From NCBI GenBank assembly GCA_902510755.1, contig CABXCS010000003.1, positions 1 to 64,000 of the forward strand: a stretch of 64,000 bases of DNA. The letters are read 5' to 3'. The notes under the pieces are model-generated. The model saw only the letters and a program-made list of their open reading frames with translations, did not search any database and was not told where the DNA came from. The stretch is from an uncultured Woeseiaceae bacterium (GTDB taxonomy: Bacteria > Pseudomonadota > Gammaproteobacteria > Steroidobacterales > Woeseiaceae). Below, in pieces: positions 7,534 to 50,889 of this stretch (positions within the stretch are counted from its first letter, which is position 1; every line of letters begins with the position of its first letter). The translations under genes and the position numbers were made by a program.

Positions 7534-8718
7534 ATGCGTGAAGCGGTAATTGTATCGACTGCTAGAACACCCATAGGGAGAGCCTATCGCGGTGCTTATA
7601 ATAATACTGACGCCCCAACTATGGGTGGGCATGCTATTCAGCATGCGGTCGCCAGAGCTAATATTGATCCTGAATCTGTTGAGGATGTAATTATGGGCTG
7701 TGGCATGCCACAAGGTACGCAAAGTCAGAATATAGCAAGATTATGCGCTTTATCTGGAGATCTACCAATTACCACAGCAGGAATGACCATAGATCGCCAA
7801 TGTTCTTCTGGCATGATGGCCATAGCGACTGCATCAAAATCTATAATGACAGGCGAACATGACATTATGGTTGCTGGCGGTTTGGAGTCAATCAGCCTGG
7901 TTCAGAATGAACACGCGAATACGCACAGGGTGGTTGATAAAAACCTTACCGCTAAACATATGCATATTTATATGCTTATGTTAGATACAGCTGAAGTGGT
8001 AGCTAAGCGCTATAATATTAGCAGACAAAGTCAAGATGCTTATGCTTTGCAAAGTCAACAAAGAACGGCATTAGCGCAAACTGCTGGTAAGTATGATGCA
8101 GAAATTGCACCATTATCATCTAACATGGGTTTAATGGATCGCGATACGGGAAAAATAAGCTTCAAAGAGGTGACGCTAAATAAGGATGAAGGGAATCGTC
8201 CAGAGACAAGCCTTGAAGGTTTAGAGGGGTTAAAGACAGTTAGAGAAGGTGGTTTCATTACTGCTGGTAATGCCAGTCAACTATCTGATGGTGCATCTGC
8301 ATCCGTAGTGATGGCGGCAGAAGTAGCAAAACAAAGGGGAATTGAACCATTGGGATATTATCGTGCCACTGCAGTAGTGGGATGTAATCCTGATGAGATG
8401 GGTATTGGTCCAGTATTTGCAGTACCAAAATTATTAGAAAAAACTGGATTAACAATGGATGATATTGATCTTTGGGAGCTCAATGAGGCATTTGCTGTTC
8501 AGGTAATATATTGTCGCGATAGATTGGGAATCCCAAATGAAAAATTAAATGTAAATGGAGGCGCTATTTCCATTGGTCATCCCTATGGAATGTCCGGGGC
8601 AAGAATGGTTGGTCATGCTCTAATAGAAGGCAAGCGGCGAGGTGCCAAGTATGTGGTCTGTACAATGTGTATTGGAGGTGGCCAAGGTGCTGCTTCATTA
8701 TTCGAAGTTGCCTCATGA
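7534..8718 (+). CDS. Thiolase (acetyl-CoA C-acyltransferase)
   Basis: 394 residues, normal length for a degradative or biosynthetic thiolase. The nucleophilic Cys is in DRQCSSG (about residue 90), the catalytic His in [11 protein letters not shown], and the second catalytic Cys in [10 protein letters not shown] near the C terminus. It cleaves 3-ketoacyl-CoA or condenses two acyl-CoA units in the cytoplasm. It starts 16 bases after the SDR gene and precedes an MDR enzyme and a MaoC hydratase, which together form a beta-oxidation-like set lacking an acyl-CoA dehydrogenase and a ligase here. Whether the direction is degradative or synthetic cannot be decided from sequence. Confidence 0.93.
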
Positions 8719-8744
8719 GTTCTTGCTATAGGGAAATTTTCTAG

Positions 8745-9722
8745 ATGAGGGCCCTCGTATGTAAACAATATGGACCACCCAGTGAGCTCATTCTAGATGA
8801 GCTGGATGATCCTAAACCTTCAAAAGGGCAGATATTAATCAAAGTTAAAGCTGCGGGAATAAATTTTCCAGACGTATTGTCTATTGAGGGGAAATACCAA
8901 GTTAAGACTGAACCGCCATTTATACCTGGTAATGAAGCATCTGGAATTATTAAAGCAGTGGGTGAAGGAGTAGAAAGATTCAAACCAGGCGATAAAGTCA
9001 TAACAATGAGCAAAGGTGGTGCTTTTGCAGATAAATGCATTTCCGATGAGAACACGACCATACCATTATTCCCTGCGTTGAATTTTTCTCAAGGTGCAGG
9101 ATTCATGGTGACCTATGGCACCAGTTATCATGCACTCAAACAATCTGCAGAGCTCAAAGAAGGAGAAACAATTTTAGTTCTGGGCGCAGCGGGTGGTGTT
9201 GGTGTCACTGCCATCGAAATAGCAAAAGCCATGGGCGCAAGAGTTATTGCTGCCGCAAGCAGCAATGAAAAATTAGAATTTGCAAAAGATGTCGGTGCAG
9301 ATGAGACAGTTAATTATACAAAATCTTCATTAAAGGAAGCGGTCAAAGAATTAACAAACGGTAAAGGCGTAGATGTGGTATACGATCCTGTGGGCGGTGA
9401 ATTGACTGATGCCGCACTTAGAGCAACTGCGTGGCATGGACGTTATCTTGTCATTGGATTTGCATCTGGTGATATCCCCAAATTTGCAGCAAATATACTC
9501 TTATTAAAAGAGGCAAGTGCAATTGGGGTGTGGTGGGGAACTTGGGCAGCCAAAAATCCTCATAAACACATACAAAATATCAAAGAACTTGGGGCCATGA
9601 TTGCTTCTGGGGATATAACACCAAGAGTCACCGAAGAGTTTACTATTGATCAGTATAAAGAAGCTTTTGAAGTGATCACTGAGAGACGAGCAAAAGGAAA
9701 AGTAATACTCACAATGAATTAA
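8745..9722 (+). CDS. NADPH:quinone oxidoreductase-like MDR enzyme
   Basis: 325-residue zinc-free medium-chain dehydrogenase/reductase. The N-terminal half carries GINFPDVL and the loop PFIPGNEASG; the nucleotide-binding domain has LGAAGGVGVTAIE (about residues 145-157) and ends KGKVILTMN as in the QOR family. Members reduce quinones or act as enoyl-CoA/enoyl-thioester reductases. Its place between thiolase and MaoC hydratase makes an acyl-CoA-related reduction plausible, but this is inference. It follows the thiolase stop by 26 bases, in the same orientation. Confidence 0.87.
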   Translation: MRALVCKQYGPPSELILDELDDPKPSKGQILIKVKAAGINFPDVLSIEGKYQVKTEPPFIPGNEASGIIKAVGEGVERFKPGDKVITMSKGGAFADKCISDENTTIPLFPALNFSQGAGFMVTYGTSYHALKQSAELKEGETILVLGAAGGVGVTAIEIAKAMGARVIAAASSNEKLEFAKDVGADETVNYTKSSLKEAVKELTNGKGVDVVYDPVGGELTDAALRATAWHGRYLVIGFASGDIPKFAANILLLKEASAIGVWWGTWAAKNPHKHIQNIKELGAMIASGDITPRVTEEFTIDQYKEAFEVITERRAKGKVILTMN

Positions 9723-9745
9723 ATTTTCTAAAAAAGGAAAAACCA

Positions 9746-10204
9746 ATGAAGCTAGTTCCAAGAGAAAAACTAAATGACTACATAGGCAAAGAGATTGGTT
9801 GTTCTGATTGGTTTTTGGTGGATCAAGAACAAATAAACAAATTTGCCGATGTTACAAAAGACCATCAGTTTATTCATATCAATGAAGATCAAGCCAAAAA
9901 AACACCATTTGGCTCAACCATTGCACACGGTTTTCTGACGTTATCCATGCTGACATACCTAACTGAAAATTGCCGCTTAATTCCTGAGGGAACAGTCATG
10001 GGCATCAATTATGGATTTGATAAGGTACGTTTTGTAATGCCAGTTAAAGTAAATAGCAGGATTCGTGCAAGAGTAACACCACTCTCTTGCAACGAAAAAA
10101 ATCCAGGACAATGGCTGATAAAATCCGAAGTCACAGTTGAAATCGAAGACGAAGAAAAGCCAGCTATTGTCTCAGAATGGCTTTCAATGGTGATAACTAA
10201 ATAG
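9746..10204 (+). CDS. MaoC-like (R)-enoyl-CoA hydratase
   Basis: 152 residues with the hotdog hydratase-2 motif: FADVTKDHQFIHI (catalytic Asp and His at about residues 39 and 44) followed by PFGSTIAHGFLTL. It would hydrate enoyl-CoA to (R)-3-hydroxyacyl-CoA. A good AAAGGA ribosome site precedes the ATG. Fourth gene of the SDR-thiolase-MDR-MaoC operon; the hydratase and SDR would handle the same (R)-hydroxyacyl intermediate. Confidence 0.9.
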   Translation: MKLVPREKLNDYIGKEIGCSDWFLVDQEQINKFADVTKDHQFIHINEDQAKKTPFGSTIAHGFLTLSMLTYLTENCRLIPEGTVMGINYGFDKVRFVMPVKVNSRIRARVTPLSCNEKNPGQWLIKSEVTVEIEDEEKPAIVSEWLSMVITK

Positions 10205-32292: not shown

Positions 32293-33123
32293 ATGAGAAA
32301 AAAGTTTAATTCAATTTTAATGCTATGCTCTATTGTGCTTATCTTAGGTTGTTCGCAAGATAATTTAGAAAAAAATTATATCCTTGTTCCAGGGGGAGAT
32401 GTTGATATTGGTTCGGAGGAAGGTCTTTCTTCAGAACAACCGGTTAATAATTACAGTGTTAAGTCATTTTACTTGTCTGTTCACCCAGTAACAGTAAAGC
32501 AATTTAGAGATTTTGTCGAAGCTACGAATTACCAAACAGAAGCTGATCGATATGGCAATTCTGGTGTATTCTCGTTTATTAAACAACAATGGTACATGCA
32601 TGATGGGGCTAACTGGGAATATCCATTAGGTCGCTCCAATCAGATGGCTATAGATGATCATCCAGTTACACAAGTTAGCTGGAATGATGCTATAGCATAT
32701 ACTCTGTGGAAGGGAGTGAGATTACCTACTGAAATTGAATGGGAGCATGCGGCTAGGAATGGGATTAATAGTCGCTCTATATATCCTTGGGGTAACAAAT
32801 TTAAAGTTAATAATAAATTCAGAGCAAATGTATGGCAGGGTACTTTTCCTTTTATTAATACAAATGAAGATGGATTTATGACAACGTCATCTGTTACTGA
32901 GTTTCCCCCTACTTCTCTGGGTCTGTATGATATGGCTGGTAATGTCTGGGAGTGGACTAGTTCAGAATATCAGGAAGGGAACTCTGTTCCAATGAAAACC
33001 ATCAAGGGTGGGTCTTTTCTCTGTGAACCTGATTTTTGTCATGGGTATAGAGTGTCCTCAAGAATGGGTACAACACCTGATACAAGTCTTATGCATACAG
33101 GTTTTAGAACGGCAAGAAATTAG
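32293..33123 (+). CDS. Lipoprotein formylglycine-generating-enzyme-like protein
   Basis: 276 residues with lipobox LILGC (Cys20). The FGE-sulfatase domain fills the rest: LSVHPVTVKQFRDFV, PVTQVSWNDAIAYTLWKGVRLPTEIEWEHAAR, and NVWEWTSS. The C-terminal motif GGSFLC-x4-C-x2-YR keeps both cysteines (244 and 249) at the spacing of the copper-binding pair of true FGE, followed by TPDTS and HTGFR. It may therefore oxidise a Cys to formylglycine at the cell envelope. No sulfatase gene is in the window, so its client is unknown. Confidence 0.82.
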   Translation: MRKKFNSILMLCSIVLILGCSQDNLEKNYILVPGGDVDIGSEEGLSSEQPVNNYSVKSFYLSVHPVTVKQFRDFVEATNYQTEADRYGNSGVFSFIKQQWYMHDGANWEYPLGRSNQMAIDDHPVTQVSWNDAIAYTLWKGVRLPTEIEWEHAARNGINSRSIYPWGNKFKVNNKFRANVWQGTFPFINTNEDGFMTTSSVTEFPPTSLGLYDMAGNVWEWTSSEYQEGNSVPMKTIKGGSFLCEPDFCHGYRVSSRMGTTPDTSLMHTGFRTARN

Positions 33124-36676: not shown

Positions 36677-38083
36677 TTACTTAATCTTTTTTTCAGGCAG
36701 AGTTATTTTTACAGTAAAATCTTTATCAGTTGTGATGGCTTTTATTTTGCCTTTATTAAGCTCAACAGCTTCTTTAGCAATTGCTAAACCTAAACCTGAT
36801 CCTTCCTCATTCTCAATATTTGCCTGAAAAGTTCTATGAAAAGGTTCAAAAATCTTTTCTGCGTCAGATTGATTTACACCAGCACCTTCGTCAGTTATTG
36901 AAATATCAATAGCTTGCTCTTTTTTACTTATCTTAAAAAGTATATGAGAGTTTTTTGGTCCATATTTCATAGCATTTCTTAGAATATTTTCTAATGCACT
37001 TTTAAGTTGGGACTCATATCCAAAAAAATTAATATTTGGTTCTGCTTCTAAATTGACTTCAATATTATGTGTTTTAATATTTTTGTATTCAAAATTGATA
37101 TTTTCTATTACTTCTTTTGCGAGCATAGTTAGATTAATCAATTTATCTGACTCTTTTTTTACATTACCTACAATCGAATACTCTAAGATACTGCCAATTA
37201 ATTTATTCAGGAGGTTAATTTCTTTTTTTATTCTCACATGTTCAATTTTTTCGGAGGTATCACGTTGTTGCACTATATCAAGAGACACTAACATTCTAGA
37301 TAGAGGCGAGCGAAGTTCATGTGAAATATTTCTGAGTAACTCTTCTGCTTGTGCTTTGTATTGAGAGAGTTTATTTGTCATCCTATTAATATCTCTAGCA
37401 AGACTTCCAATTTCATCTTTCCTGTTGCTTACTGAATCGGATACCTGAGTCAGAAAATTTCCTTCAGCTACTGAGCTTGCAGCCTCCCTAAAATGTTTAA
37501 TTGGCTTGGTGATGGCTCGTGATAGGAGGTAAGAAACTGCTAAACTTAATATGAGACAACAAAGCAATATGAATAGAAATAAATTATCATCAAAAGTACC
37601 TTGTATAGAACTATTTTTTGGGAAAAAGAATAACTTATATCTTTTATTATCAGGTCCAATCAAAAAAGGGACTGTATTTGCTGGTCTCAGATTGCTAGGC
37701 AAGGCTGGGGTTTGTCGAAATTCATTAGGTTTTTTTCTTTTAGATCTGTGATGAGGTAACTCAAAATGATTTTGCCAGTTAATAATTCTTCTAGGAATAT
37801 TTCTACCCAAAATATCTTTCCGCTCGTCATCCAAGAGAAAAATCCTCAATGGATATTGATCTCTATTGTCAATATTCTTTAGCCAAATTTTCAACCCCGA
37901 GTAACCTTGTGTATCGAGTACTTCACCCGCCCTGATGACTGTTTCATCTATTTCAAAGTTTGAATAAACTTCATCCATTCTTGTGTGGTAGAAATATCCA
38001 GCGAAAGCAGCAAATATCATTGTCGCAATAATAATTAACCAGAATGAGGCAAAGATTCGTATAAATAAGTTATTGATTTTCAT
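36677..38083 (-). CDS. CpxA-like sensor histidine kinase
   Basis: 468 residues. TM1 at about 11-31 and TM2 at about 167-188 enclose a basic periplasmic domain. Then come HAMP, the HisKA motif ISHELRSPLSR with the phospho-His, the N box ENILRNAMKYG, DEGAGV and GSGLGLAI. This order and the divergent CpxP-like gene point to an envelope-stress system like CpxA. It lies 13 bases after the regulator gene on the same transcript. The sensory domain may differ in ligand from E. coli CpxA. Confidence 0.88.
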   Translation of the reverse strand: MKINNLFIRIFASFWLIIIATMIFAAFAGYFYHTRMDEVYSNFEIDETVIRAGEVLDTQGYSGLKIWLKNIDNRDQYPLRIFLLDDERKDILGRNIPRRIINWQNHFELPHHRSKRKKPNEFRQTPALPSNLRPANTVPFLIGPDNKRYKLFFFPKNSSIQGTFDDNLFLFILLCCLILSLAVSYLLSRAITKPIKHFREAASSVAEGNFLTQVSDSVSNRKDEIGSLARDINRMTNKLSQYKAQAEELLRNISHELRSPLSRMLVSLDIVQQRDTSEKIEHVRIKKEINLLNKLIGSILEYSIVGNVKKESDKLINLTMLAKEVIENINFEYKNIKTHNIEVNLEAEPNINFFGYESQLKSALENILRNAMKYGPKNSHILFKISKKEQAIDISITDEGAGVNQSDAEKIFEPFHRTFQANIENEEGSGLGLAIAKEAVELNKGKIKAITTDKDFTVKITLPEKKIK

Positions 38084-38096
38084 AATATTCTTTTAT

Positions 38097-38798
38097 CTAA
38101 TCACCAATTAAGGCGTAACCGACACCTCTCTGACTGTAAATAATTTCTTTTTCCGCTCCAAGATTCTTTAATTTTGTTCTTATGTTACTTACGTGGGTGT
38201 CAATGCTTCTATCATAAGGAACAAATGATCTTCCGAGTGCGTGTTCACTCAACTCGTCTTTGTTTACTGTCTTACCAAGATTTGAAGCTAAGCATGAGAG
38301 TATTTCAAACTCTGTGCCAGTTAGTTTCAAAGGCAATTTATTATAAGCTGCTTTACGATTTTTAATTGAAATCTCAATTAATCCATAAGCAATATGATCC
38401 TTATTTATTAGTTGAGTTGAACGTCTCAATATAGCTTTTATTCTTGCCAGTAATTCCTGTGAATTAAATGGCTTTGGTAAATAATCATCTGCACCCAATT
38501 CAAGACCAAGAATACGATCATTTTCTTCGCCACTCGCCGTAAGCATTATTACTGGTATCCAATTGTCTTTTCTAATTTCTTTGAGCGTAGTTAGCCCTGA
38601 AATACCCGGTAGCATTATATCTAAGATTAGTAAATCATAATTATGATTTGGATTATTCATTTTTAGTAATTCGATTGCTTCTTCACCACTATGCAATATT
38701 TTAATATTGAGATGATTATGCTCGAGAAAGTCACTTAACAATACACATAATTCTTGATCATCATCAACTAAAAGTATATTTTTCTTATCATTTATCAT
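38097..38798 (-). CDS. CpxR/OmpR-family response regulator
   Basis: About 233 residues from the ATG at 38798; an upstream ATG at 38819 adds seven. The receiver opens ILLVDDDQELCVLL, the phospho-accepting Asp is in LLILDIMLPG, and Lys in PKPFNSQEL. The C-terminal winged helix ends SQRGVGYALIG, as in OmpR-type proteins. It is the partner of the adjacent kinase and likely controls the divergent CpxP/Spy-like gene and its own operon. Confidence 0.92.
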   Translation of the reverse strand: MINDKKNILLVDDDQELCVLLSDFLEHNHLNIKILHSGEEAIELLKMNNPNHNYDLLILDIMLPGISGLTTLKEIRKDNWIPVIMLTASGEENDRILGLELGADDYLPKPFNSQELLARIKAILRRSTQLINKDHIAYGLIEISIKNRKAAYNKLPLKLTGTEFEILSCLASNLGKTVNKDELSEHALGRSFVPYDRSIDTHVSNIRTKLKNLGAEKEIIYSQRGVGYALIGD

Positions 38799-38924
38799 AG
38801 TAGCTTTCTGTCCAAACATAGAGTTTCATTATATTTTTACATGTTCCGAAGATTAGTATGTAAATATTTAACAATTCTTGACAATAATCCAATTTTCTTA
38901 ACACAACTCTAATAAGTTTGTATA

Positions 38925-38940
38925 TAACATGTATATGTTA
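38925..38940. promoter_or_regulatory. Inverted repeat upstream of CpxP-like gene
   Basis: TAACAT and ATGTTA flank GTAT, a perfect six-base inverted repeat 28 bases before the ATG of the CpxP/Spy-like gene, in the divergent promoter region. It may be an operator or simply part of the AT-rich promoter; it does not match the GTAAA-N5-GTAAA CpxR box. Confidence 0.35.
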
Positions 38941-38968
38941 ATAATATTTAATTAGAGAGGTCTATATT

Positions 38969-39475
38969 ATGTATAAATGTTGGGTTATTTTGATATTTTC
39001 AACAACTATGTTCGCAAATAATGCATTCTCAGATAATCAATTTTATGAAAAACAATTATCTGATTTTAAAAAAATGGATGATCGCAAGTTAAGAAAAATG
39101 GAAAAATATTTTGATTTAGATGCAGATCAAAAAATAGCGATCAAATCTATTATGGAAGATTCGTTCATAGCAATGAAGGAAAGTAAGAGCAGTATGAAAA
39201 AAAGTAAAGACGCATTAATGAATTTAGATCCAAATAATAAAAACTTTAAAGATGAACTGTTAAATCTATCCAATAAAATATCTGGTCTAGTAAGAGAGCA
39301 GACTATTTTACAAGGGGAAATTAAATATAAAATCAATAATCAGTTAAATGATAATCAGAAGGAGTTGGCAAAAGCATTTTCAAGAATTGAAAAAAGGAAT
39401 TATGAGAAAGATATTAAATGGAAGGAGAGGGGCAGGCCCAAAAACACAGAAAAGAAAAGAAAACATTTGATGTAG
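38969..39475 (+). CDS. CpxP/Spy-like periplasmic protein
   Basis: 168 residues with a signal peptide ending NAFSD. The mature part is helical and charged, with two LTxxQ-like segments (LDADQKIAIKSIM and LNDNQKELAKAF), as in CpxP/Spy/CnrX proteins. Spy and CpxP bind misfolded periplasmic proteins, and CpxP represses CpxA. It is divergent from the Cpx-like regulator genes, the standard arrangement. AGAGAGG precedes the ATG. A strong hairpin follows. Confidence 0.75.
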   Translation: MYKCWVILIFSTTMFANNAFSDNQFYEKQLSDFKKMDDRKLRKMEKYFDLDADQKIAIKSIMEDSFIAMKESKSSMKKSKDALMNLDPNNKNFKDELLNLSNKISGLVREQTILQGEIKYKINNQLNDNQKELAKAFSRIEKRNYEKDIKWKERGRPKNTEKKRKHLM

Positions 39476-39504: not shown

Positions 39505-39535
39505 AAAAACGATCATTCATTGATCGTTTTTTTTA
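39505..39535 (+). terminator. Rho-independent terminator
   Basis: AAAACGATCA (39506-39515) pairs perfectly with TGATCGTTTT (39521-39530) over a five-base loop, followed by a run of T. It closes the CpxP-like gene and isolates the downstream operon. Confidence 0.85.
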
Positions 39536-39667: not shown

Positions 39668-40276
39668 ATGTATTCAATAAAATCACTTCGAAGACGCTAT
39701 TATATTGGGTTTATTTTGATTTATATACTTCAGGGTTGTGGTATTACATATAGCGGTATGTCAGGTTCATCAGGCGGTATGTCAGGTTCATCAGGTTCTG
39801 TTCGTGGTATGAGTGGCAGAGGAATGTCAGGCGGAGCTGACGGAGTAAATGGTGGATCCAGTGAAACAAATGCTGAAAAACAAGCCAGACTCGAGGGAGA
39901 GCTGGAGAGATCCGTAGGTGGTTTAGATGAAGTATTGGGTCAAGAGCAACGCGAAATAGAATCAGTAGGAAGAAATACAGAAGGTTTTGGTGGTAATTCA
40001 AGTAATAGAAGTGGAGTTGGTCTGGGTGGGCAATCAACAGGGGGAAGACAGAGAGGAATAGAAGGAAGCTCATCGACTATGAATCTACCTGCTAATGCAG
40101 CATCAGTAGAAGAGCTCAGTCAGGAGGAGATAGATGAAAGAACGCCAGATGATATTCCTGATTTGGTAAGTGAAGACATTGTAGCTAAACAACTCCGCGA
40201 AGCTGCATTAACCGAAAATGATCCACAATTAAGAGAACGTTTATGGGATGAATATAGGAATTATAATCGTCTATAA
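39668..40276 (+). CDS. Gly/Ser/Met-rich lipoprotein, first gene of envelope operon
   Basis: 202 residues. Lipobox LQGC (Cys24). The next 50 or so residues are low-complexity GMSGSSG and similar repeats, from a perfect 21-bp duplication and degenerate copies. After a charged stretch of about 50 residues comes another Gly/Ser segment, then a helical C terminus rich in Glu/Asp and ending EYRNYNRL. AGGAG precedes the ATG. It starts a nine-gene run. I do not recognise the family; it may be an outer-membrane-anchored, flexible tether. Confidence 0.65.
   Translation: MYSIKSLRRRYYIGFILIYILQGCGITYSGMSGSSGGMSGSSGSVRGMSGRGMSGGADGVNGGSSETNAEKQARLEGELERSVGGLDEVLGQEQREIESVGRNTEGFGGNSSNRSGVGLGGQSTGGRQRGIEGSSSTMNLPANAASVEELSQEEIDERTPDDIPDLVSEDIVAKQLREAALTENDPQLRERLWDEYRNYNRL
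39754..39795 (+). repeat. Perfect 21-bp tandem repeat, two copies
   Basis: Two adjacent identical 21-bp units, the second beginning at 39775. They encode GMSGSSG twice in frame in the lipoprotein. Further degenerate GMSG copies follow to about 39835. Length changes by whole units would keep the reading frame. Confidence 0.85.
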
Positions 40277-40299
40277 AACTTATAGACAAAATCTTCTCT

Positions 40300-41541
40300 A
40301 TGATTATTAATTTCAGACAAACTTTAATTTCAATGCTTATCTTGAGCTTTACTGCATCATGTACAGTTTCTGAGATAATTGATGCAGAAAGAACTGCACT
40401 TGATATTGCGAGCCTTAATATCTCTGAAAATTTACTGCTAGATATTGGTATTATTAGGTTTGAAGGTGGTGTTCCAGAAGATAATGATGCCGATAAGACT
40501 GGTATTTATCAAGAAATAAGAGAAGCTGAATCTCGTTATTTTCCGTATCACATAAAAACAACTCTTGAAAAAACGGGCTATTGGGGCTCAGTAAGGGTTA
40601 TTCCTTCAAAGACGGTTATTACTGATGTTATTGTGACAGGGAGAGTGCTTCGATCAGATGGAGAAAATGTATCTATAAGAATTAAAGCAAAAGATTCATC
40701 GGGTCAAGAATGGTTTGAGAGAGATTACACAACACAAACAGGGTTAAGGTCCTATTCTGAGAACAGGGATAGAGCAATCGATCCATATCAGAAAGTTTTT
40801 AATGACTTTGCAAATGATTTAAGACTTTATGCCGCATCTCTTCATAGCTCTGTCAATAAAAGAATTCAGCAAACATCTGAGTTGTTATTCTTCGCCGATA
40901 TGATCCCTACAGTATATGGCCCTTATCTAAATAACGATGAAGGTTCTATTGAACTTCTTAGGCTACCCCCTGAAAATGACCCTATGGTAAAGCGACTTCG
41001 TGGAATAAGAGAGCGTGATCGCTCAGTAATTGATTCAATAAACGAGCATTACGCGAATTATTATTATGGAATAGCATTACCCTATGAGGGGTGGAGAAAA
41101 AAAGCACGTGAAAATCAGATTAATATTCGTGATACAAAACGTGCTGCTACAGTCAGAGCTTTAATAGGTGTTGCAGTAACAGCTGGATCAATAAATATGG
41201 ATACAAGTGATACCAGTCGCTCTAGACGAAATATTAAAAGAGCCACACAAAGTGTTGGTATTGATAGAGGTATAAGAACAATTATAGATGCTTGGCAGTT
41301 AAGACAGTCAACGAATTCATATCGCACTCAAATAGGTGAGCTTTCTGAGTCATTTATCGCAGAAGCCGCACCTCTGACTATTGAGGTTGAAGGCCAATCA
41401 AGACGTTTAGTTGGTACCGCAGAATCACAATATGAAGGCTGGCGGAAGCTGCTGAAAGAGATAAATGATCTTGAAACTGCAATTCCTGATTCGCAATATA
41501 TAGATACTACCACCAGTACTGGCAACAATAGCTTGAATTAA
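40300..41541 (+). CDS. Lipoprotein of the FHA/VWA envelope operon
   Basis: 413 residues with lipobox TASC (Cys21). The mature part begins TVSEIIDAERTALDIASLNISENLLLDIGIIRFEGG. A beta-rich region then follows (TDVIVTGRVL, VSIRIKAKDSSG), and then a long helical, Arg/Glu-rich half with YEGWRKKARENQ and a second YEGWRKLLKE. No enzymatic motif is seen. It lies 23 bases after the Gly-rich lipoprotein and five before the kinase gene. Possibly an outer-membrane structural partner; function unknown. Confidence 0.7.
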   Translation: MIINFRQTLISMLILSFTASCTVSEIIDAERTALDIASLNISENLLLDIGIIRFEGGVPEDNDADKTGIYQEIREAESRYFPYHIKTTLEKTGYWGSVRVIPSKTVITDVIVTGRVLRSDGENVSIRIKAKDSSGQEWFERDYTTQTGLRSYSENRDRAIDPYQKVFNDFANDLRLYAASLHSSVNKRIQQTSELLFFADMIPTVYGPYLNNDEGSIELLRLPPENDPMVKRLRGIRERDRSVIDSINEHYANYYYGIALPYEGWRKKARENQINIRDTKRAATVRALIGVAVTAGSINMDTSDTSRSRRNIKRATQSVGIDRGIRTIIDAWQLRQSTNSYRTQIGELSESFIAEAAPLTIEVEGQSRRLVGTAESQYEGWRKLLKEINDLETAIPDSQYIDTTTSTGNNSLN

Positions 41542-41546
41542 TTCCG

Positions 41547-43787
41547 GTGATTGTTTTACAAAAAGATTTAATTCTAAAAAACCGATACAAGTTAGTAAAA
41601 TCTCTTGGTCAGGGTGGCCTATCTTCTGTTTGGTTGGCTGAAGATATCAAATTAGAGATATTAGTTGCCTTGAAGTTTCTAAATGAAAGTTTAATAAATG
41701 ATATAAATCATATTAAAAATTTTAGTAATGAGTGGAAAATTGCACATAATTTAATTCACCCAAATATCATAAAAGTTTATGAATATCATGCTGATACAAC
41801 CACTCCTTTTTATGCTATGCAGTACATAGACGGATATGAAATATCAATATTATCTAAGGACGAGTTACAAAATATCATACGACCATTTCTCTCGATTGTT
41901 GGTGCTGTGGAGTATCTTCATGAAAAAGAAATCTATCATGGTGATATTAAAATAAATAATATTTTATTAGATAAAAAAGGCCAACCATTCTTAATTGATT
42001 TTGGGAACTCAAATAATCTTCTAGACCAAAAAACAAATCAGAACAAACCTAGCACTGATATTAAGAAATGTATATCAAGAGATATTTATTCTTTAGGCAT
42101 TTTGTTATACGAAATTATTCATGGCTTACCATTAGAGGATGATAAGAATTCAGCGTTAATCTTTGATTCAGGAATAAGTAGTGAGCTGAAAAATCTGATT
42201 ACGGAAATGGCTAGTAATACACTAGATGGGGCATTTCAAGTCAAAGACATTCAGAGTAAGTTTGTTGAGCTTGGTTATAAACCAGGCACCGCTGTAATTC
42301 CTTTTATAGAAAATGATGAAAGTATTGATATAGAAACAATCAGTATTGATGACAAAGACCTGCATGATAATCAAGTCAACAAATCAAAAGACGGTATCTC
42401 ACTGAAGAAATTTTTAATAAGTCTAATCTTTATTGGATGTTTATTCTTATTTGTAATATTTGTATTGCCAGAGCTGGTAAAATCGAACACTTCTCCAGTT
42501 AAGATTGATACTTTGAGCACAAGCTCATCGATTGAAGAAGAATCAGAGGATATTGAATCATTGTTACAAGAGAGAATTAGGGCTGATGAAGCACTTGCAA
42601 CTTTCCTTTCAAAATTAAGCTATTCAAAAAATAATGGCATAGAAAAATGGGGAGGAAACGCCTATAAATCTATCAATAATATTTACCAGGAAGGTGATAA
42701 TTTCTACTTACAAGCAATTTATAAAGAAGCTACTGATAACTATCAATTAGCATCATTAGAGTTAGATAAACTATCAAATCAGATTGATCAGATATTGGAA
42801 AATAATATTAACAAAGGATTAACTGCGTTGAAGATTGATAACTTTAATGATGCAATAAAATATTTTGATATTGTTGTTTCTATTGAGCCTAAAAATGATT
42901 CTTATAAAGATTATTACCAAAGAGCTTTAAATCTCGAGGAGCTATTGAACTTAAGTGCTCAGGGAAGGGTATTCGAAGAGGAATTAGAATTTGAATCGGC
43001 TAGAGATACCTATCAATTAGCTTTAAAACTAGATGGTAGTTATGAGCCAATTTTATCATTACTAGAGAATCTTGAAGAGAAAATTAAACGCAGAGATTTT
43101 GAGAATAATATGTCGGAGGGGTTTGTTGCTCTTAAAAGAAATAATTTTGCATCTGCTAGGGCTTTGTTTGAGAAAGCCAGTGAAATGAACCCTGACACTA
43201 AAGAGCCGCATGATGCAATATTGCAGTTAATTGAAAAAGAAAAAGATCAAAAGATTTCTAAATTAGAGAAGCAAGGGCGCAACCAAGAAGAGCAGGAGTT
43301 ATGGGAGCTTGCAATCATTTCATATCAAGAACTCTTAAAGCTTGACCATGATTTGCTGTTTGCCAAAGAAGGGTTGGAAAAATCAGTTGAGCGTGAATTA
43401 CTTCATAGGGATATCCAAAAGTATATTGATGACTTTGATCTCCTGACTGAACCTGGGATGATCAAAAAAGCAACAGAACGTTTGCTTGTCGCAGTAAAAT
43501 ATGAACAAAAGCCTCGTTTAAAAGCACAAACCATGGAACTTAAACGTCTTTTGAAGCTTGCAAATACACCTGTGCCTATATCGCTTGTATCGGATAACCT
43601 TACTGATGTTACACTTTTTAGGATCGGTAAATTAAAAAGATTCAATAATAAAAAGATAATTATATTGCCAGGGAAATATGTTGCTGTAGGTATAAGGAAT
43701 GGGTATCGAGATGTACGTGTCGAATTCAAAGTTATTCCTGAACAATTTCTGAAACCAATTGAAGTGATGTGTAAGGAAGAGATTTGA
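41547..43787 (+). CDS. Transmembrane Ser/Thr kinase-like protein with TPR-like repeats
   Basis: 746 residues from a GTG. The N-terminal kinase domain has GQGGLSSVW (about 21-29), Lys43 in VALKFL, HGDIKINN with Asp133 and Asn138, and DFG at 151. The usual HRD Arg is Gly and no APE motif is visible before RDIYSLG, so activity needs testing. TM helix at about 288-309. The periplasmic part carries helical, TPR-like repeats (for example ALKIDNFNDAIKYFDIVVSIEPKND). Its stop overlaps the next start (TTGA). Confidence 0.85.
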   Translation: MIVLQKDLILKNRYKLVKSLGQGGLSSVWLAEDIKLEILVALKFLNESLINDINHIKNFSNEWKIAHNLIHPNIIKVYEYHADTTTPFYAMQYIDGYEISILSKDELQNIIRPFLSIVGAVEYLHEKEIYHGDIKINNILLDKKGQPFLIDFGNSNNLLDQKTNQNKPSTDIKKCISRDIYSLGILLYEIIHGLPLEDDKNSALIFDSGISSELKNLITEMASNTLDGAFQVKDIQSKFVELGYKPGTAVIPFIENDESIDIETISIDDKDLHDNQVNKSKDGISLKKFLISLIFIGCLFLFVIFVLPELVKSNTSPVKIDTLSTSSSIEEESEDIESLLQERIRADEALATFLSKLSYSKNNGIEKWGGNAYKSINNIYQEGDNFYLQAIYKEATDNYQLASLELDKLSNQIDQILENNINKGLTALKIDNFNDAIKYFDIVVSIEPKNDSYKDYYQRALNLEELLNLSAQGRVFEEELEFESARDTYQLALKLDGSYEPILSLLENLEEKIKRRDFENNMSEGFVALKRNNFASARALFEKASEMNPDTKEPHDAILQLIEKEKDQKISKLEKQGRNQEEQELWELAIISYQELLKLDHDLLFAKEGLEKSVERELLHRDIQKYIDDFDLLTEPGMIKKATERLLVAVKYEQKPRLKAQTMELKRLLKLANTPVPISLVSDNLTDVTLFRIGKLKRFNNKKIIILPGKYVAVGIRNGYRDVRVEFKVIPEQFLKPIEVMCKEEI

Positions 43788-46201
43788 TTATTTCTCAGAT
43801 AATTCTTAGGCAGAAAGGAAAAGAGGCGCACCCTCTTGTTATTCATAAACCAGTTCAATTAGGGACAAGTCAAAATTGTGATATAAAAATTGAAGGACCA
43901 GGGAATTCTATTTTTGCTGAATTTCTGGTTACTGATCAAGAATTAGTGATAAGAAATATTGGCAATAGTAAAGTAATTTATATTAATGGTGATATTTTGC
44001 TTGATCACATGATACTTAAGGTTGGTGATCAAATTGAAATCTTTGGATCAACCATTGATATTGATTGTAAAAATGATGAAATAGTTTTAAGCCTTGATAT
44101 TGAGGGAAGCACTTATATTACAAAGCCCCCAATATTTGAGGATTCAGTGGAAGTGATTCAGGCTCAGAAATATAAAAAAAACGTTTCTGTTAATAAAATA
44201 GATAATGTTTCATTCTCAAATCAGAAATGGAAATATCTAGTGGGTTCCTTCATATTTCTTCTAATAAGTTTAGCTTATTTCATTTTTAATTCTTACTCAG
44301 TGAAATTCAATGTAATCCCATCAGATATTGATAATTTATCTATTAAAGGTGGTTGGTTTAAAATAGCCTTAGGTGATCGCGTTCTAATGAAAGAAGGTTC
44401 GTATTTTTTAAACATTGAGAAAGAAGGTTACTATCCAATTAACCAGAGTTTTGTGGTTGGTGAAAATCAAGACTTAAATATTACTGTGAACTTAAAAGAA
44501 TTACCTGGTTTGATCAGTATTTACAGTCAGTTAGAAGGAAGTAGCACTATAACCCTGGCTGATTCGGTGGCAATTAATTCATTAATTGAATCCAAAAAGA
44601 TGGAGCCAGGTCAATATTTATTGACTATTGAGTCAGAGAGATTCTTGCCATTTGAAGATACTATTCAAGTTATTGGTAAAAATATTCAGCAGCATATTTA
44701 TGTAGATCTAATTCCAAAATGGGCAAAAATATCGATTGATTCGATCCCTTCAGGTGCGACGGTTATAAATGATAGTACTGAAATTGGCTATACGCCCACT
44801 GATATAGAATTGATAGAGGGTAATCATGAACTCTCTATTATGAAAGACGGCTTCAAAACTCAGGATCTCAATATTTCCGTTACAGCGAATTCAGCGCAAA
44901 AACTTGAGCGAATTATTCTTGCACCAGCCAATGCTCAATTGTCTGTAGATACGATCCCACAAGGAGCGAATATAAAAGTTAATAATCGTTATAGAGGGCA
45001 AACGCCCATGATCTTATCGTTATTACCAGATGAGGAATATATTATAGAGTTTTCAATAAGTGGCTTTAATTCTCAGCAAAGAAAGGTCCGCTTAGGACAG
45101 GCACAAAATGAAGCGATTAAAATCGATTTAGCTGCAAGACTAGGTAATGTGATTATCTCTGTAGAGCCAAAAGATGCTGAAATTTATATTAATAATCAAA
45201 AACAGGGCAGTGGATTTTTAGATATTAATCTGCCCACCACTAATCATGAGTTAACTATCAAAAGAGAGGGATTCGGCTCTTACAAGCGTAAAATCCTCCC
45301 TCGACTAAATTATCCTCAAAAAATAAATATCTCACTTTTGAGTGATGAAGAAATAAGATTGAGTAACCTTGAGTATCAAATTACAAATTCTCAAGGGCAG
45401 GTTATGAAGAGAATCGAGCCAGGGATATTTACAATGGGCGCCTCACGACGAGAAATGGGCAGGCGAGCTAACGAAGTAATACAAAGCATCCAGTTAACTA
45501 AACCATTTTATATTGGTGTAAAAGAAGTGACAAATAAGGAATTCTCAAGGTTTCGTGCACTTGATAGTTCTATTTCTGATATCCATCCCTCATTATTAGC
45601 AGATAATAACCCCGTGGTTTCAATCGATTGGTCAGATGCAGTTGAATATTGTAATTGGTTGAGTTCAATTGAAGGTTTGGATCCTGTTTATACCAAACGT
45701 TTTGAGAAATGGGAAAAAATCAAACCTATGCCTAATGGATATCGTTTGCCTACTGAAGCAGAATGGGCTTGGGCTATTCGATATGAAGCAAAGAAAAGTA
45801 CCACAGCTTTTCCATGGGGAAATAGACTTCCTCCGCGACGAAATTTTGGAAACTTTGCTGATGTAGCTGCTAAAAATATTACTTTGAATATTATCTCTAA
45901 TTATAATGATGGTTATGCATCGACATCACCAGTAGGTACTTTCAAACCTAATTCTCTTGGAATTTATGATGGAAGTGGTAATGTTTCTGAGTGGATCAGT
46001 GATTATTATTCAATTGCGACACCGGGACTCAGCCAAGTCTCTGTGGATCCAGATGGTCCTGATTATGGAAATAATTATGTGATAAGAGGATCAAGCTGGC
46101 GGCATGCTAATATAACTAACTTAAGAGGAAGTTATAGGGATTTTGGGAGTAGTGGGAAGATTGATGTTGGATTTAGGTTGGCAAGGAATAGTAGTGATTG
46201 A
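43784..46201 (+). CDS. FHA-like / TM / PEGA / FGE-like fusion protein
   Basis: 805 residues from a TTG with AAGGAAGAG upstream. Residues about 1-95 form an FHA-like sandwich that lacks the SxxH phospho-site. A TM helix at about 150-168 follows. Then come PEGA-type beta repeats (about 172-240, 312-380, 383-455, 460-530, with IPSGATV, IPQGANIKV, PKDAEIYI). The end is an FGE-sulfatase fold (about 555-803: PVVSIDWSDAVEYCNWL, RLPTEAEWAWAIR, GNVSEWISD). Unlike the lipoprotein at 32293, its RGSSWRH segment has no catalytic Cys, so a structural or binding role is likelier. Confidence 0.85.
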   Translation: MIISQIILRQKGKEAHPLVIHKPVQLGTSQNCDIKIEGPGNSIFAEFLVTDQELVIRNIGNSKVIYINGDILLDHMILKVGDQIEIFGSTIDIDCKNDEIVLSLDIEGSTYITKPPIFEDSVEVIQAQKYKKNVSVNKIDNVSFSNQKWKYLVGSFIFLLISLAYFIFNSYSVKFNVIPSDIDNLSIKGGWFKIALGDRVLMKEGSYFLNIEKEGYYPINQSFVVGENQDLNITVNLKELPGLISIYSQLEGSSTITLADSVAINSLIESKKMEPGQYLLTIESERFLPFEDTIQVIGKNIQQHIYVDLIPKWAKISIDSIPSGATVINDSTEIGYTPTDIELIEGNHELSIMKDGFKTQDLNISVTANSAQKLERIILAPANAQLSVDTIPQGANIKVNNRYRGQTPMILSLLPDEEYIIEFSISGFNSQQRKVRLGQAQNEAIKIDLAARLGNVIISVEPKDAEIYINNQKQGSGFLDINLPTTNHELTIKREGFGSYKRKILPRLNYPQKINISLLSDEEIRLSNLEYQITNSQGQVMKRIEPGIFTMGASRREMGRRANEVIQSIQLTKPFYIGVKEVTNKEFSRFRALDSSISDIHPSLLADNNPVVSIDWSDAVEYCNWLSSIEGLDPVYTKRFEKWEKIKPMPNGYRLPTEAEWAWAIRYEAKKSTTAFPWGNRLPPRRNFGNFADVAAKNITLNIISNYNDGYASTSPVGTFKPNSLGIYDGSGNVSEWISDYYSIATPGLSQVSVDPDGPDYGNNYVIRGSSWRHANITNLRGSYRDFGSSGKIDVGFRLARNSSD

Positions 46202-46247
46202 TATTCGAATGATAAAAGTATAGATGTTATATTGAATTGAGGGTTAA

Positions 46248-46538
46248 ATGTTAAGGATTCTATTATTAACAATATTATTTGGATACGCTCTTGATGGCTT
46301 CTCACAAGATAGCCAAACTATTGATAGTTCGACGAATTCAATAACTGAAGTTCCTGCTGATACAGAAATCATAACAAATAGCACATCTGAGAATGAGGCT
46401 GAAAAACCTCAAGATGATAATGAGTCAGAGAATTCTTTTGATTTAGATTCACAAGTTTATGACGAGGCTGAGGATATATTTGTCCCATCTGAGGAGATTC
46501 CTGCTGATGAGCCAATACAGTTTCCAACTAATATATAA
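46248..46538 (+). CDS. Small acidic exported protein
   Basis: 96 residues. The signal peptide runs to about DGFSQD, then a chain rich in Glu, Asp, Ser and Thr, with no hydrophobic core and no Cys, so probably unstructured. A GAGGG site lies upstream. It sits between the PEGA-FGE fusion and the channel-like subunit in the same direction. I do not recognise a family; it may be a periplasmic linker or inhibitor of the envelope complex. Confidence 0.55.
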   Translation: MLRILLLTILFGYALDGFSQDSQTIDSSTNSITEVPADTEIITNSTSENEAEKPQDDNESENSFDLDSQVYDEAEDIFVPSEEIPADEPIQFPTNI

Positions 46539-46584
46539 TATTTGAGACAATAAAAGCATAACAAAATTTTATGAGAAAATATAA

Positions 46585-47391
46585 ATGAAAAAAAATACAA
46601 TCCCAGTTGAGTTTGTTTATCAGTTATTTGCATTAATTATCTCAATAATAATTGTGCATGGTTATTACGTCTCGGTTATCAGGCCAAATGCAAATCAAAT
46701 AATACTTGAACAAAAAATTGAAGCTGAAGTAAATCCTAATTATGTTAAAGAGAGATCTGCCTGGGTTTTAGTTAAGGACTTTGAGCAAGAGTCGTGTTTT
46801 ATATTAATGATTTGGGCCCTAGCAATTATGGGTTTCAAAATTGGCTCAATTTTGAATGAGAGGAAATTACTTGAGGCAAATTTAATATCTATATCTGATG
46901 GAATGAAGATCTTGCCTGATGATGCGCGAGATTTAGAAAGACAAATAGAGTTATTAGATGAAAAAAAACAGACAATGGTTCTCCCTAGAGCTTTACTTAG
47001 TGCTCTAAGAAGATTCGGTGCCACAAAGAATATTCAAGATGTCTCAATAACCACGCATACTATATTCGAATCTGAAGCAGAAAGGTTGGAGTCAGAGTTA
47101 TCCATGATTCGTTATATCTCTTGGGCTATTCCATCAATAGGTTTTATAGGAACAGTCAGGGGGATTGGTGATGCATTGGGACAGGCTGATATTGCTGTTC
47201 AAGGTGACATTTCTGGTGTAACTCAAAGTCTTGGGGTGGCTTTTAATTCAACTTTCATTGCTCTTCTGATTAGTATTTTTCTAATGTTTTTAGTCCACCA
47301 GCTTCAGTTATTACAAGAAAGATTAGTTTTTGACAGTGAGAGTTATACAAATGACAAGCTCATTCGTCATATGAAAAACGAAACAATTTAG
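46585..47391 (+). CDS. MotA/TolQ/ExbB-type channel subunit
   Basis: 268 residues. TM segments at about 11-29, 70-90, 175-192 and 222-244, with a charged cytoplasmic loop between the second and third. The family motifs are IGFIGTVRGIGDALGQ and SLGVAFNSTFIALLISIF, whose Thr residues line the channel in ExbB/TolQ/MotA. It would form the ion-conducting pentamer. There is no ExbD/TolR/MotB gene, but the two VWA proteins downstream carry a comparable TM helix with Asp16 and may take that place. Confidence 0.85.
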   Translation: MKKNTIPVEFVYQLFALIISIIIVHGYYVSVIRPNANQIILEQKIEAEVNPNYVKERSAWVLVKDFEQESCFILMIWALAIMGFKIGSILNERKLLEANLISISDGMKILPDDARDLERQIELLDEKKQTMVLPRALLSALRRFGATKNIQDVSITTHTIFESEAERLESELSMIRYISWAIPSIGFIGTVRGIGDALGQADIAVQGDISGVTQSLGVAFNSTFIALLISIFLMFLVHQLQLLQERLVFDSESYTNDKLIRHMKNETI

Positions 47392-47407
47392 AGATTAGGC
47401 GAAGCTA

Positions 47408-48775
47408 TTGTCCCATGCAACTCTATATATAAATGACATAGATATAAGTCTTCTAAATGATGATAAGATTTTGTATCGACAACCTAGTCATGTATTAAAT
47501 AAAAATGGTGAGTTCTTATTTGGCTCTACTGCTCTGGCAAAAACAAGAATATTTCCTCAAAATATGCAAAATCGATTTTGGTTTGATGTTTCGAATAAAA
47601 AATACAAAATTGATGGTTATAAGCAATTTTCACCTGCTGATATCGCTAGTAAAGAATTAGAATATATATTATCTTTTCTATCAAAAAGCACTCCAATATT
47701 GGTTATTGTTCCTCCATATCTTGAAAAACAGCAAGTAAGCCTAATTGTGGGGATTGCTAATGAGCTCAATATTAAAGTTATTGGGATAATAGAATCAGCA
47801 ATTGCCGCAACTAGAAATGAGTACAAAGATTCAAAACTATTACACCTTGATCTCCATTTACATTGCCTATCTATATCTTTATTACAGCAAGATAATGGAG
47901 TCATACTAGAAAGATCCGTTATTATAAACGATTGTGGTATGGAGTCTTTTTATGCTCTTTGGATAAAAATGATATCAAAAGCTTTTATCAAGCAATGCAG
48001 GTTCGATCCATTACACACAGGAGACTCAGATCAACAGTTATTTGATAATTTACCAGTGATTTTATCTCAGTCTCTAACAACGGATATAGTGCATATAGCA
48101 ATCAAGAATAAAGGGCAGGTTTATTCCATAGAAATAGTAGCTTCAGAATTTAGTAAGGCAGCCATCCCTCTATACAAGTTATTACTAAATAAATTGCGCT
48201 TAATTTGTGAAGCAGAGGATTTATTGGCATTTCAGTTTTCGAGTCATTTATCTAAACTTCCTGGTTTAAAAGAATTCTTAGAATCCAACTTTTCTTCTGA
48301 AATATTTAAACTTCCCGAGGAAACTACGATAAGAGGAGCTTCTGAGAGATTTTTGATAGAAGATTACGAAGGTAACTCATTGAAATTACATAAAAAGCTA
48401 CCCTGGGATAAACCTTCAATTCGTATAAAAGAGTCAAGCAATAAATCAGTCATGAAAGATATACCAAGTCATATTTTATATGAATCTAGAGCATATAAGA
48501 TAACTGAGTTACCACTAAACATAGGTACTAATCCACCCTATGATAGTCATAATATAAAGATTAAAACCAATATTGGCGGTATATCCAGACAGCATTGCTC
48601 GCTAATAATTAAAAATAATAAATGTCTAATAAGTGATCTAAGTCGCTATGGAACCTATCTTAATGATCAAAGAATTGAAAATTCTACTTTTTTAAGCATT
48701 GGAGACAAAATCAGAATTGGCTCACCAGGAATAGAATTTCTTTTAATTTATATTAATGAAGATCTAGATGCGTAA
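47408..48775 (+). CDS. Actin/Hsp70-like domain fused to FHA domain
   Basis: 455 residues from a TTG. Residues about 1-330 have an actin/Hsp70-like layout: an early LYINDIDISLL strand, GSTALAKTRIFPQ, LVIVPPYLEKQQVSLIVGIA, and IESAIAATRNEY, followed by LLHLDLHLHCLSISLLQ. Residues about 355-450 are a typical FHA domain with SRQH (393-396) and RYGTYLNDQRI, able in principle to bind phospho-Thr. Its end overlaps the first VWA gene by eight bases. Likely cytoplasmic; the ATPase part is a weak-similarity call. Confidence 0.72.
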   Translation: MSHATLYINDIDISLLNDDKILYRQPSHVLNKNGEFLFGSTALAKTRIFPQNMQNRFWFDVSNKKYKIDGYKQFSPADIASKELEYILSFLSKSTPILVIVPPYLEKQQVSLIVGIANELNIKVIGIIESAIAATRNEYKDSKLLHLDLHLHCLSISLLQQDNGVILERSVIINDCGMESFYALWIKMISKAFIKQCRFDPLHTGDSDQQLFDNLPVILSQSLTTDIVHIAIKNKGQVYSIEIVASEFSKAAIPLYKLLLNKLRLICEAEDLLAFQFSSHLSKLPGLKEFLESNFSSEIFKLPEETTIRGASERFLIEDYEGNSLKLHKKLPWDKPSIRIKESSNKSVMKDIPSHILYESRAYKITELPLNIGTNPPYDSHNIKIKTNIGGISRQHCSLIIKNNKCLISDLSRYGTYLNDQRIENSTFLSIGDKIRIGSPGIEFLLIYINEDLDA

Positions 48776-49859
48776 AAAAAGACAGACAGATATTTTTAGC
48801 TTATCTTTCCTAGATTGCATGTGCTGTGGGTTTGGAGCTGTAATTTTACTTTTTATGATTATTAATTCACAGGTCAAGGAACAGATAAATATCGATCAAT
48901 TGATCCCAAAAAACAATCTGAGCAATCTTAAGCTTGAGTTATTAGAAAGTCGTAAAGAATTAATTCTAGCAAAAAGTACATTTGATGACGTTAAGCAAAA
49001 AGATACATTTATAAATGACGAGCTTGACAGGATGATTGTTCTATTAGCGAAATTAAAAGAAGAAATTAAAAACAACAATATTGATTCTTCAGTTAAAAAT
49101 GAAAGCATAGAAAAGCTAAAGTTAGATATTAAAAAATTAAGTGAGGAGCGTAATGCTATGCTTTCTGTGACTCAGCGCCTGCAATCAGGAGAGAAAGTAA
49201 GAAATTATTCAGGAGAGGGTGACAGGCAATATCTTACAGGTTTAAAGGTAGGGGGAGAAAGAATATTAATTTTGGTAGATGCATCAGCTAGTATGTTGGA
49301 TCGCAAGATTATTAATATCCTTAGGCGAAGAAATATGTCAGATGATCTTAAATTAAGATCATCAAAATGGCGACAAGCAATTTCAAGTGTTGACTGGTTA
49401 ACAGCTCAATTCCCTCAAACAAGTAAATTCCAAATATATACATTTAATAATATGACTCAATCCATCATAGATGGAAGTGATGGTGATTGGATTGATGTTG
49501 GTAATGGTGATCAACTAGAACAAGCATTAAAGAATTTACGCAGAACAATTCCAGATGAAGGAACGAATTTAAAAGATGCTTTTTCTATTATTAATGAACT
49601 TAATCCTCGACCTGATAATGTTATCTTGTTAATTGATAGCTTACCCACAATGAATCAATCATCAACAGAAAGAGGAATGATTACTGGGCAAGAGCGCCTG
49701 AATCTATATTATGAGGCAGAAACTGAAATACCTAGTGGTATTCCTGTGAACATACTTTTGTATCCAATGGAAGGCGATTACAATGCGGCGATAGCATATT
49801 GGTTATTGGCTTATCGAACTGGTGGTTCATTTATGAGTATCAGCAAGGATTGGCCTTAG
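48768..49859 (+). CDS. Membrane-anchored VWA protein, first paralogue
   Basis: 363 residues. A basic start (MRKKRQ) precedes a TM segment FSLSFLDCMCCGFGAVILLF (11-30) with Asp16. A long coiled-coil-like stretch (about 50-140) follows, then a VWA domain with MIDAS DASAS (171-175), the Thr in EGTNLKDA, and DSLPT. By the positive-inside rule the VWA part is periplasmic. The TM signature resembles ExbD/TolR, where Asp is essential. It partners the MotA-like gene and is followed by a paralogue after ten bases. Confidence 0.85.
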   Translation: MRKKRQTDIFSLSFLDCMCCGFGAVILLFMIINSQVKEQINIDQLIPKNNLSNLKLELLESRKELILAKSTFDDVKQKDTFINDELDRMIVLLAKLKEEIKNNNIDSSVKNESIEKLKLDIKKLSEERNAMLSVTQRLQSGEKVRNYSGEGDRQYLTGLKVGGERILILVDASASMLDRKIINILRRRNMSDDLKLRSSKWRQAISSVDWLTAQFPQTSKFQIYTFNNMTQSIIDGSDGDWIDVGNGDQLEQALKNLRRTIPDEGTNLKDAFSIINELNPRPDNVILLIDSLPTMNQSSTERGMITGQERLNLYYEAETEIPSGIPVNILLYPMEGDYNAAIAYWLLAYRTGGSFMSISKDWP

Positions 49860-49869
49860 GGAGATAACT

Positions 49870-50856
49870 ATGAGGAAAAAAAGGAATATTGAAGCTTTCA
49901 GTCTCTCTTTTTTGGACTGCATATGCTGTGGTTTTGGTGCCGTTGTCCTATTACTTGTATTAAGTAAATTAAATGATCCAAATTTAATGATGACTGATAA
50001 GGTTTCTGAAGATTCCATAATTCTATTGACTAAGGAGATAGAGGAAATCAAGGATCTATCAGTATTAACCACAAACGAGATAGAGTTGATTCAAAGTGAT
50101 ACTTCTAAAAAACAGTTAGATCTTAATTTATTAAATCAAGAATTAAATGATACACAGAGTTTGTATGATAAAAGTTTACTTCAGCCAGAGTTACTTGATG
50201 CTGATGAGGGCGAACTTGAAGCGGCTAGACAAAAAATATCAGATGAAATAAAAAGACTGCAACCCGATTTTAAACGTGCTGCAAACGAAGCAATTGGGGG
50301 AATTCCAGTAGATAGTGAATATATAATTTTTGTTATAGATACTTCTGGCAGCATGCAATCCAAATGGGACTGGGCGGAAAGAAAACTGGGAGAGGTTTTA
50401 GATGTCTATCCAACCGTCAAAGGTTTGCAGATTATGAATGACAATGGGCGATTTATGTTTCAACAGTACGGACGTACTTGGTTACCAGATACCCCTCAAT
50501 TGAGGCAGTCAATAAAAAATACAATGCGACAATGGGCACCTTTTAGTGACAGCGACCCATCTGATGGCATTATTTATGCCATTCAATCATTTTGGGCTCC
50601 AGAGAAGAAAATCAGCATCTATGTTTTTGGTGATGAGTTTCAAGGGAATTCAATGGAAAAAGTATTACGTGATATTGATGAAATTAATGTAGAAGATAAG
50701 AATGGCGATCGATTGGTCAGAATACATGCAGTGGGTTTTCCATACTCGTTTGGAGGAAGAAGTATCCCTCAAAGTTCCCAAAGATTTGCTGGTTTGATGC
50801 GTTTATTGTGCGAAAGGAATGGCGGAACATTTGTAGCATTGACAAATGCTAATTAA
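49870..50856 (+). CDS. Membrane-anchored VWA protein, second paralogue
   Basis: 328 residues. It shares MRKKR and the TM signature FSLSFLDCICCGFGAVVLLL (11-30, Asp16) almost unchanged with the preceding protein, while the rest differs. A coiled-coil-like segment (about 50-140) leads to a VWA domain with MIDAS DTSGS (157-161) and SDPSDGI, IYVFGDEF. It is the last gene of the operon; a strong hairpin follows the stop. The pair may form a heterodimer, as ExbD/TolR/MotB act as dimers. Confidence 0.85.
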   Translation: MRKKRNIEAFSLSFLDCICCGFGAVVLLLVLSKLNDPNLMMTDKVSEDSIILLTKEIEEIKDLSVLTTNEIELIQSDTSKKQLDLNLLNQELNDTQSLYDKSLLQPELLDADEGELEAARQKISDEIKRLQPDFKRAANEAIGGIPVDSEYIIFVIDTSGSMQSKWDWAERKLGEVLDVYPTVKGLQIMNDNGRFMFQQYGRTWLPDTPQLRQSIKNTMRQWAPFSDSDPSDGIIYAIQSFWAPEKKISIYVFGDEFQGNSMEKVLRDIDEINVEDKNGDRLVRIHAVGFPYSFGGRSIPQSSQRFAGLMRLLCERNGGTFVALTNAN

Positions 50857-50889
50857 ATCTGAACATCCTATAATATAGAATGTTCAGAT
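50857..50889. terminator. Hairpin terminator between VWA and azurin genes
   Basis: ATCTGAACAT (50857-50866) pairs perfectly with ATGTTCAGAT (50880-50889); inside, CTA/TAG pair around a five-base loop after one C-A mismatch. It sits between two convergent genes and may stop both. The T run is poor, so activity is likely but unproven. Confidence 0.7.

Follow-up and report, generated by a model that had tools for sequence, protein, structure and literature searches.

What does an operon that joins a Ser/Thr kinase, FHA, PEGA and FGE-like domains, a MotA-like subunit and two VWA proteins do in a bacterial envelope? The question is raised by a locus of nine genes, named here A to I, at positions 39,668 to 50,856 of a 64,000-nt stretch of DNA (the window) from a Woeseiaceae metagenome-assembled genome. 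An earlier note, made from the letters of the window, had proposed an ion-motive-force-driven, phospho-controlled envelope complex that bears no known name. The explanation favored here, at a probability of about 0.6, is that the operon encodes a variant of the 5:2 rotary motors, powered by the proton-motive force (PMF) and driving a Tol-like machine that spans the envelope. The ion-driven part of the proposal is well supported by pore threonines, transmembrane aspartates and synteny.

The motor subunit is the product of gene F, which matches MotA_ExbB (PF01618, E 1.4e-13; 51.1 bits versus a cut-off of 22.9). In a hidden Markov model alignment its residues T190 and T223 correspond to T145 and T178 of E. 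coli-type TolQ, and both are kept in all 55 sequences (55/55). Genes H and I encode homologous proteins (hhalign probability 99.9%), nearly always found as a pair, in which a short basic stretch precedes a single transmembrane helix opening with FLDxxxCGxGA. The aspartate D16 stands at the start of this sole helix and is present in every sequence covering the position, 44/44 for H and 46/46 for I; such invariance matches the expectation for helices of the MotB/TolR/ExbD type. No TolR/ExbD domain was detected by the family scan in the nine operon proteins. The Pfam hits to VWA are weak (sub-threshold VWA_2, E 4e-5, for H; E 0.04 for I), but the MIDAS motifs are clear in the alignment, with D171, S173 and S175 of H in 48/48 sequences and D157, S159, S161 and D255 of I in 46/46, so that both proteins were rightly called transmembrane VWA proteins.

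A motor core of this kind had already been predicted in 2025 and left unnamed, and the statement that the system has no name was thus nearly right. Motors composed of a TolQ homologue and a second family of TM-vWA proteins ('TPH-vWA' motors) were presented for Idiomarina (Mol Biol Evol 2025, Fig. 4c,d; PMC12204202), with AlphaFold 3 models that place an aspartate pair at the threonine ring and predict a 5:2 motor; the section concerned assigns them no function. The products of F, H and I share the features by which that section describes the family: a heterologous TM-vWA pair beside a TolQ homologue, a transmembrane aspartate facing the threonine ring, and no TolR/ExbD. The same section is silent on kinase/TPR-PEGA, PEGA-FGE, Hsp70-like and two lipoprotein genes and on a conserved operon. 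The present analysis reaches the motor core of that section independently and adds the operon. A survey of MotAB homologues (mBio 2025) leaves VWA proteins unmentioned. No description of the full operon of seven to nine genes was found in the open literature, a search that covered neither subscription papers nor preprints, and some of the neighboring genes may appear in the figures or supplements of PMC12204202.

The operon is conserved as a unit. Near-complete loci, each with B, D, F, H and I, number 42 and cover about 19 families (counted by locus family labels) in two classes. Most of them keep the order A-B-C-D-F-H-I, which defines a conserved core of seven genes; in some loci a single gene is displaced to a place after I, namely F in L088 and L090 and A in L100 and L128. 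Gene E occurs mostly in Woeseiaceae loci, its strong matches being confined to that family and its conservation outside it poor, while G is variable. The family outside the class (f220) has A-B-C-D-F-H-I without E and G. The conserved neighborhood that the earlier note proposed to look for is therefore real: the set co-occurs in the same order across families and is not a product of chance.

Gene F was found in 54/60 relatives and in 33/36 same-genus and same-family genomes; the three genomes in which it was missed are 65–77% complete. Among 369 genomes drawn evenly from the class, F was found in 35 (E 1e-15) and B in 27, with F also in 26/27 of the B-positive genomes (hypergeometric p 3e-31). 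The single genome with B and without F (G242, locus L124, about 7373 to 10174) contains B and C in broken pieces, and the genes D, F, H and I were not found nearby. One fragment of C, 263 aa long, starts with sequence that looks foreign and may be transposase-like; this locus is a decayed remnant of the operon. Relatives of I (74–75% identical) are encoded on only two named contigs, both from Woeseiaceae and both carrying the same operon, which is retained even in genomes smaller than 2 Mb.

The presence of the operon within the family is vertical and near-universal, which argues for a housekeeping role over defense or competition. It also bears on whether the operon could be an anti-phage defense motor similar to Zorya. 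Like ZorAB, it combines a MotA-family motor with a partner other than TolR; F gives a faint match to ZorA (E 0.003), and kinase models from defense systems match C, generically. However, ZorB, ZorC and ZorD are all missing from the operon, and the near-universal, syntenic occurrence in the family is that of a core gene set and not of mobile genes in defense islands, which makes this explanation highly improbable. The PADLOC scan gave the faint ZorA match only, and nothing for ZorE.

The proteins that would connect the motor with the outer membrane are encoded by A to D. Both A and B are lipoproteins with lipoboxes readable in the sequence, as had been noted, and B is probably located in the outer membrane. 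The model of B has structural matches to FlgT (Z 10.4), PelC (Z 9.7; 2.3 Å over 111 residues), CsgG (Z 9.0) and the N-terminal domain of TolB (TolB-N, Z 8.7), with DUF330 also among the matches. PelC, CsgG and FlgT assemble into rings at the outer membrane or beneath it, a habit that, by analogy, suggests ring formation by B. In a Foldseek search with the same model TolB tops the list, yet with E values of at least 0.015, and the comparison of B with three TolB proteins by hhalign gave a probability of 0.9%; the likeness is a match of fold only, and B as a TolB homologue at the sequence level is unsupported. The proteins C and D have one transmembrane segment each, so their TPR/PEGA and PEGA/FGE parts should be periplasmic. 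The earlier reading of D stood for its PEGA and FGE-like parts, comprising five PEGA domains (PF08308, E 6e-43) and an FGE-sulfatase domain (PF03781, E 2e-41); its N-terminal FHA domain is a degenerate resemblance only, and among homologues it is degenerate or absent. The active-site cysteines of FGE are missing in D and in every aligned homologue. The absence of the C-terminal cysteine pair rules out D as an active FGE.

Several of these parts also occur in machines that export or assemble surface products, and the motor might energize the delivery of a polysaccharide, protein or adhesin, as in GldKLMN or in PelC/CsgG with their exporters. Besides the likeness of B to PelC and CsgG, the FGE domain of D resembles GldK/PorK (E 6e-30; 105 bits versus a cut-off of 350), and an M48 peptidase and extra lipoproteins often adjoin the operon. 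The type IX secretion system shares an FGE-like part (GldK) and a 5:2 motor (GldLM); it differs in that D is anchored in the inner membrane and carries PEGA repeats, and the NCBIfam scan gave no match to GldL or GldM. Since no constant neighbor was identified as an outer-membrane channel, exporter, polymerase or secreted substrate, export is considered quite unlikely as the main task.

The similarity to Tol-Pal includes the equivalents of T145/T178 in F, the TolB-N-like fold of B and an OmpA-like neighbor in many Woeseiaceae. Unlike Tol-Pal, the nine genes encode no TolR, TolA, TolB propeller or Pal. The operon was correctly judged not to be Tol-Pal, Ton, Mot or a type VI secretion system (T6SS). 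Replacement of Tol-Pal was also rejected, as tolB lies on another contig of the same genome and was found in 37/40 genomes searched.

Phosphorylation is a more variable trait. The protein C of this operon contains a protein kinase domain (PF00069, E 1e-28) with intact catalytic motifs, and TPRs. The kinase domain occurs in 22/50 homologues of C, nearly always with its catalytic residues kept, and is absent from 28/50. In the FHA domain of G, the phosphate-binding Arg of the GR motif was found in 2/32 homologues, Ser and His in 23 and Asn in 28. The AlphaFold model of G (predicted local distance difference test, pLDDT, 91) matches the nucleotide-binding domain of DnaK (Z 29 over 320 residues), the structural match list covering the Hsp70-like domain only; this agrees with the actin/Hsp70-like reading of the protein. 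A working chaperone was rejected: the fold fits, but the alignment shows no conservation of the glycine-rich phosphate motifs. Kinase-less operons in the second class also lack gene G. With neither the kinase domain nor the FHA residues conserved, phospho-control was dropped as the core idea and kept as a lineage-specific layer, plausible within Woeseiaceae because a PP2C phosphatase gene adjoins the operon upstream in four loci of the family.

Two genomes, G043 (L098/L128) and G056 (L099/L100), each contain two divergent copies of the operon, one with the kinase domain and G and the other without either. Such double copies suggest two separate loads or regimes.

The same components could instead serve mainly as a sensor, in which F, H and I report the envelope state or PMF and C and G pass the signal on as threonine phosphorylation. 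TagR is FGE-like and PpkA carries a VWA domain, and the transmembrane kinase, FHA, inactive FGE, VWA and lipoprotein parts of the operon resemble TagQ, TagR, PpkA and Fha1. These four proteins belong to the threonine-phosphorylation pathway of T6SS (PMC10482370). The PP2C genes beside the four loci, the Cpx-like two-component genes upstream of the operon and distant F-VWA loci that again contain PP2C, FHA and Ser/Thr kinase (STK)-PEGA genes are likewise in line with sensing. Unlike the T6SS module (PpkA, Fha1, PppA, TagQR), however, the operon has its kinase and FHA parts as optional elements and its VWA domains riding on motor helices, and no T6SS core components were found among the operon proteins, to which that scan was limited. 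F, H and I stay where the kinase domain or, in the second class, G is gone, the phospho-binding Arg of FHA is nearly always lost, and the fully conserved motor residues fit work better. A role mainly in sensing is thus unlikely.

A PMF-powered 5:2 motor of a Tol-like machine could operate as follows. In the inner membrane, five copies of F would make up a TolQ-like pentamer around a heterodimeric axle, to which H and I would each lend one transmembrane helix. Protons would pass Asp16 of H and I, facing the threonine ring of F, and thereby turn the axle relative to the pentamer; the coiled coils may relay this rotation to two periplasmic VWA heads, whose MIDAS metal-ion sites would take hold of a partner and let it go again. 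An envelope scaffold probably forms the partner side, built from D, C and the lipoproteins A and B of the outer membrane. To it D would contribute, on an inner-membrane anchor, its PEGA repeats and an FGE domain without catalytic activity, and C a TPR/PEGA arm, and B may build a PelC/CsgG/FlgT-like ring. The output would be mechanical, probably pulling on or remodeling the outer membrane or cell wall in parallel to the Tol-Pal system of the genome. In Woeseiaceae and their order, the kinase domain added to C and the presence of G with its FHA could form a regulatory layer. Two observations weigh against this explanation: the sequence match of F to TolQ is weak outside the pore segments (E 0.04), and the structural matches of B are middling (Z 7–10) and may stem from nothing more than a shared fold.

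Taken further, the operon might represent a complete trans-envelope rotary machine to be placed beside Tol, Ton, Mot and Gld, with a VWA heterodimer axle bearing metal-dependent gripping heads, a TolQ-like pentamer, an outer-membrane lipoprotein ring and a kinase layer in one order; this broader proposal is tentative and held at somewhat less than even odds. Known tasks are rare among 5:2 motor systems, and the motor considered here is near-universal in an abundant marine family and reaches another class. The conserved operon supplies likely partners for the orphan motor prediction of 2025, and a natural, obligatory heterodimeric axle could make the asymmetry of 5:2 motors testable.

The layout of the operon is given in Table 1. 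All nine open reading frames are on the same strand, with spacings from A to I of 23, 5, -4, 46, 46, 16, -8 and 10 bp, and both border hairpins are real. Family scans agree with the assignments of C, of the PEGA/FGE parts of D, of F and of the FHA domain of G.

Table 1. Genes and border elements of the operon, with positions in the window
Feature	Position	Strand	Description	Evidence
Left border	39505..39535	+	Intrinsic terminator hairpin of upstream gene	11-bp stem, T run, -12.5 kcal/mol, z -5.8
A	39668..40276	+	Gly/Ser-rich lipoprotein, conserved C-terminal helical motif	Lipobox LQGC; homologues in same place in most loci
B	40300..41541	+	Lipoprotein, PelC/CsgG/FlgT/TolB-N-like domain, long helical hairpin	Lipobox TASC; model pLDDT 83
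C	41547..43787	+	Cytoplasmic Ser/Thr kinase, one transmembrane segment (289-307), periplasmic TPRs, PEGA-like end	
D	43784..46201	+	Degenerate FHA-like N-terminus, one transmembrane segment (152-170), five PEGA, cysteine-less FGE	
E	46248..46538	+	Small acidic exported protein	Signal peptide; 23 acidic and 2 basic residues
F	46585..47391	+	TolQ/ExbB/MotA-like motor subunit	PF01618 1.4e-13
G	47408..48775	+	Hsp70-like domain, poorly conserved nucleotide motifs, C-terminal FHA	FHA 1e-11
H	48768..49859	+	N-terminal transmembrane segment with Asp16, coiled coil, periplasmic VWA, intact MIDAS	
I	49870..50856	+	H paralogue, N-terminal transmembrane segment with Asp16, coiled coil, periplasmic VWA	
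3' border	50857..50889	+	Hairpin, probable terminator, weaker T tail	-14 kcal/mol, z -4.5

Frequent neighbors of the operon in other loci are two further lipoproteins (11 loci) and an M48 peptidase. A TPR protein with a weak TonB_C match is encoded nearby in 9 loci, and also in L122 and L123, and an OmpA-like protein in 10 loci, mostly of Woeseiaceae. In the window, CpxRA-like two-component genes and a gene for a small exported, possibly Spy-like protein are located just upstream (36677-39475); loci L066, L067 and L069 likewise have a Spy-like gene before A. The C-terminal cysteine pair is intact in an unrelated FGE-like lipoprotein encoded at 32293-33120, beside a DUF7009 gene.

Sister-type loci (L096, L097 and L131) contain a distant homologue of F with genes for VWA, PP2C, FHA, FHA-trypsin and STK-PEGA proteins. 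Regulation by phosphorylation thus recurs around such motors but lies outside the conserved core of the A–I operon. A plasmid search gave a single distant match, one of these sister-type loci, on a plasmid of Rhizobium leguminosarum. Locus L089 (genome G270) places a homologue of F in another context, next to two proteins (1592 and 922 aa) that match nothing in Pfam.

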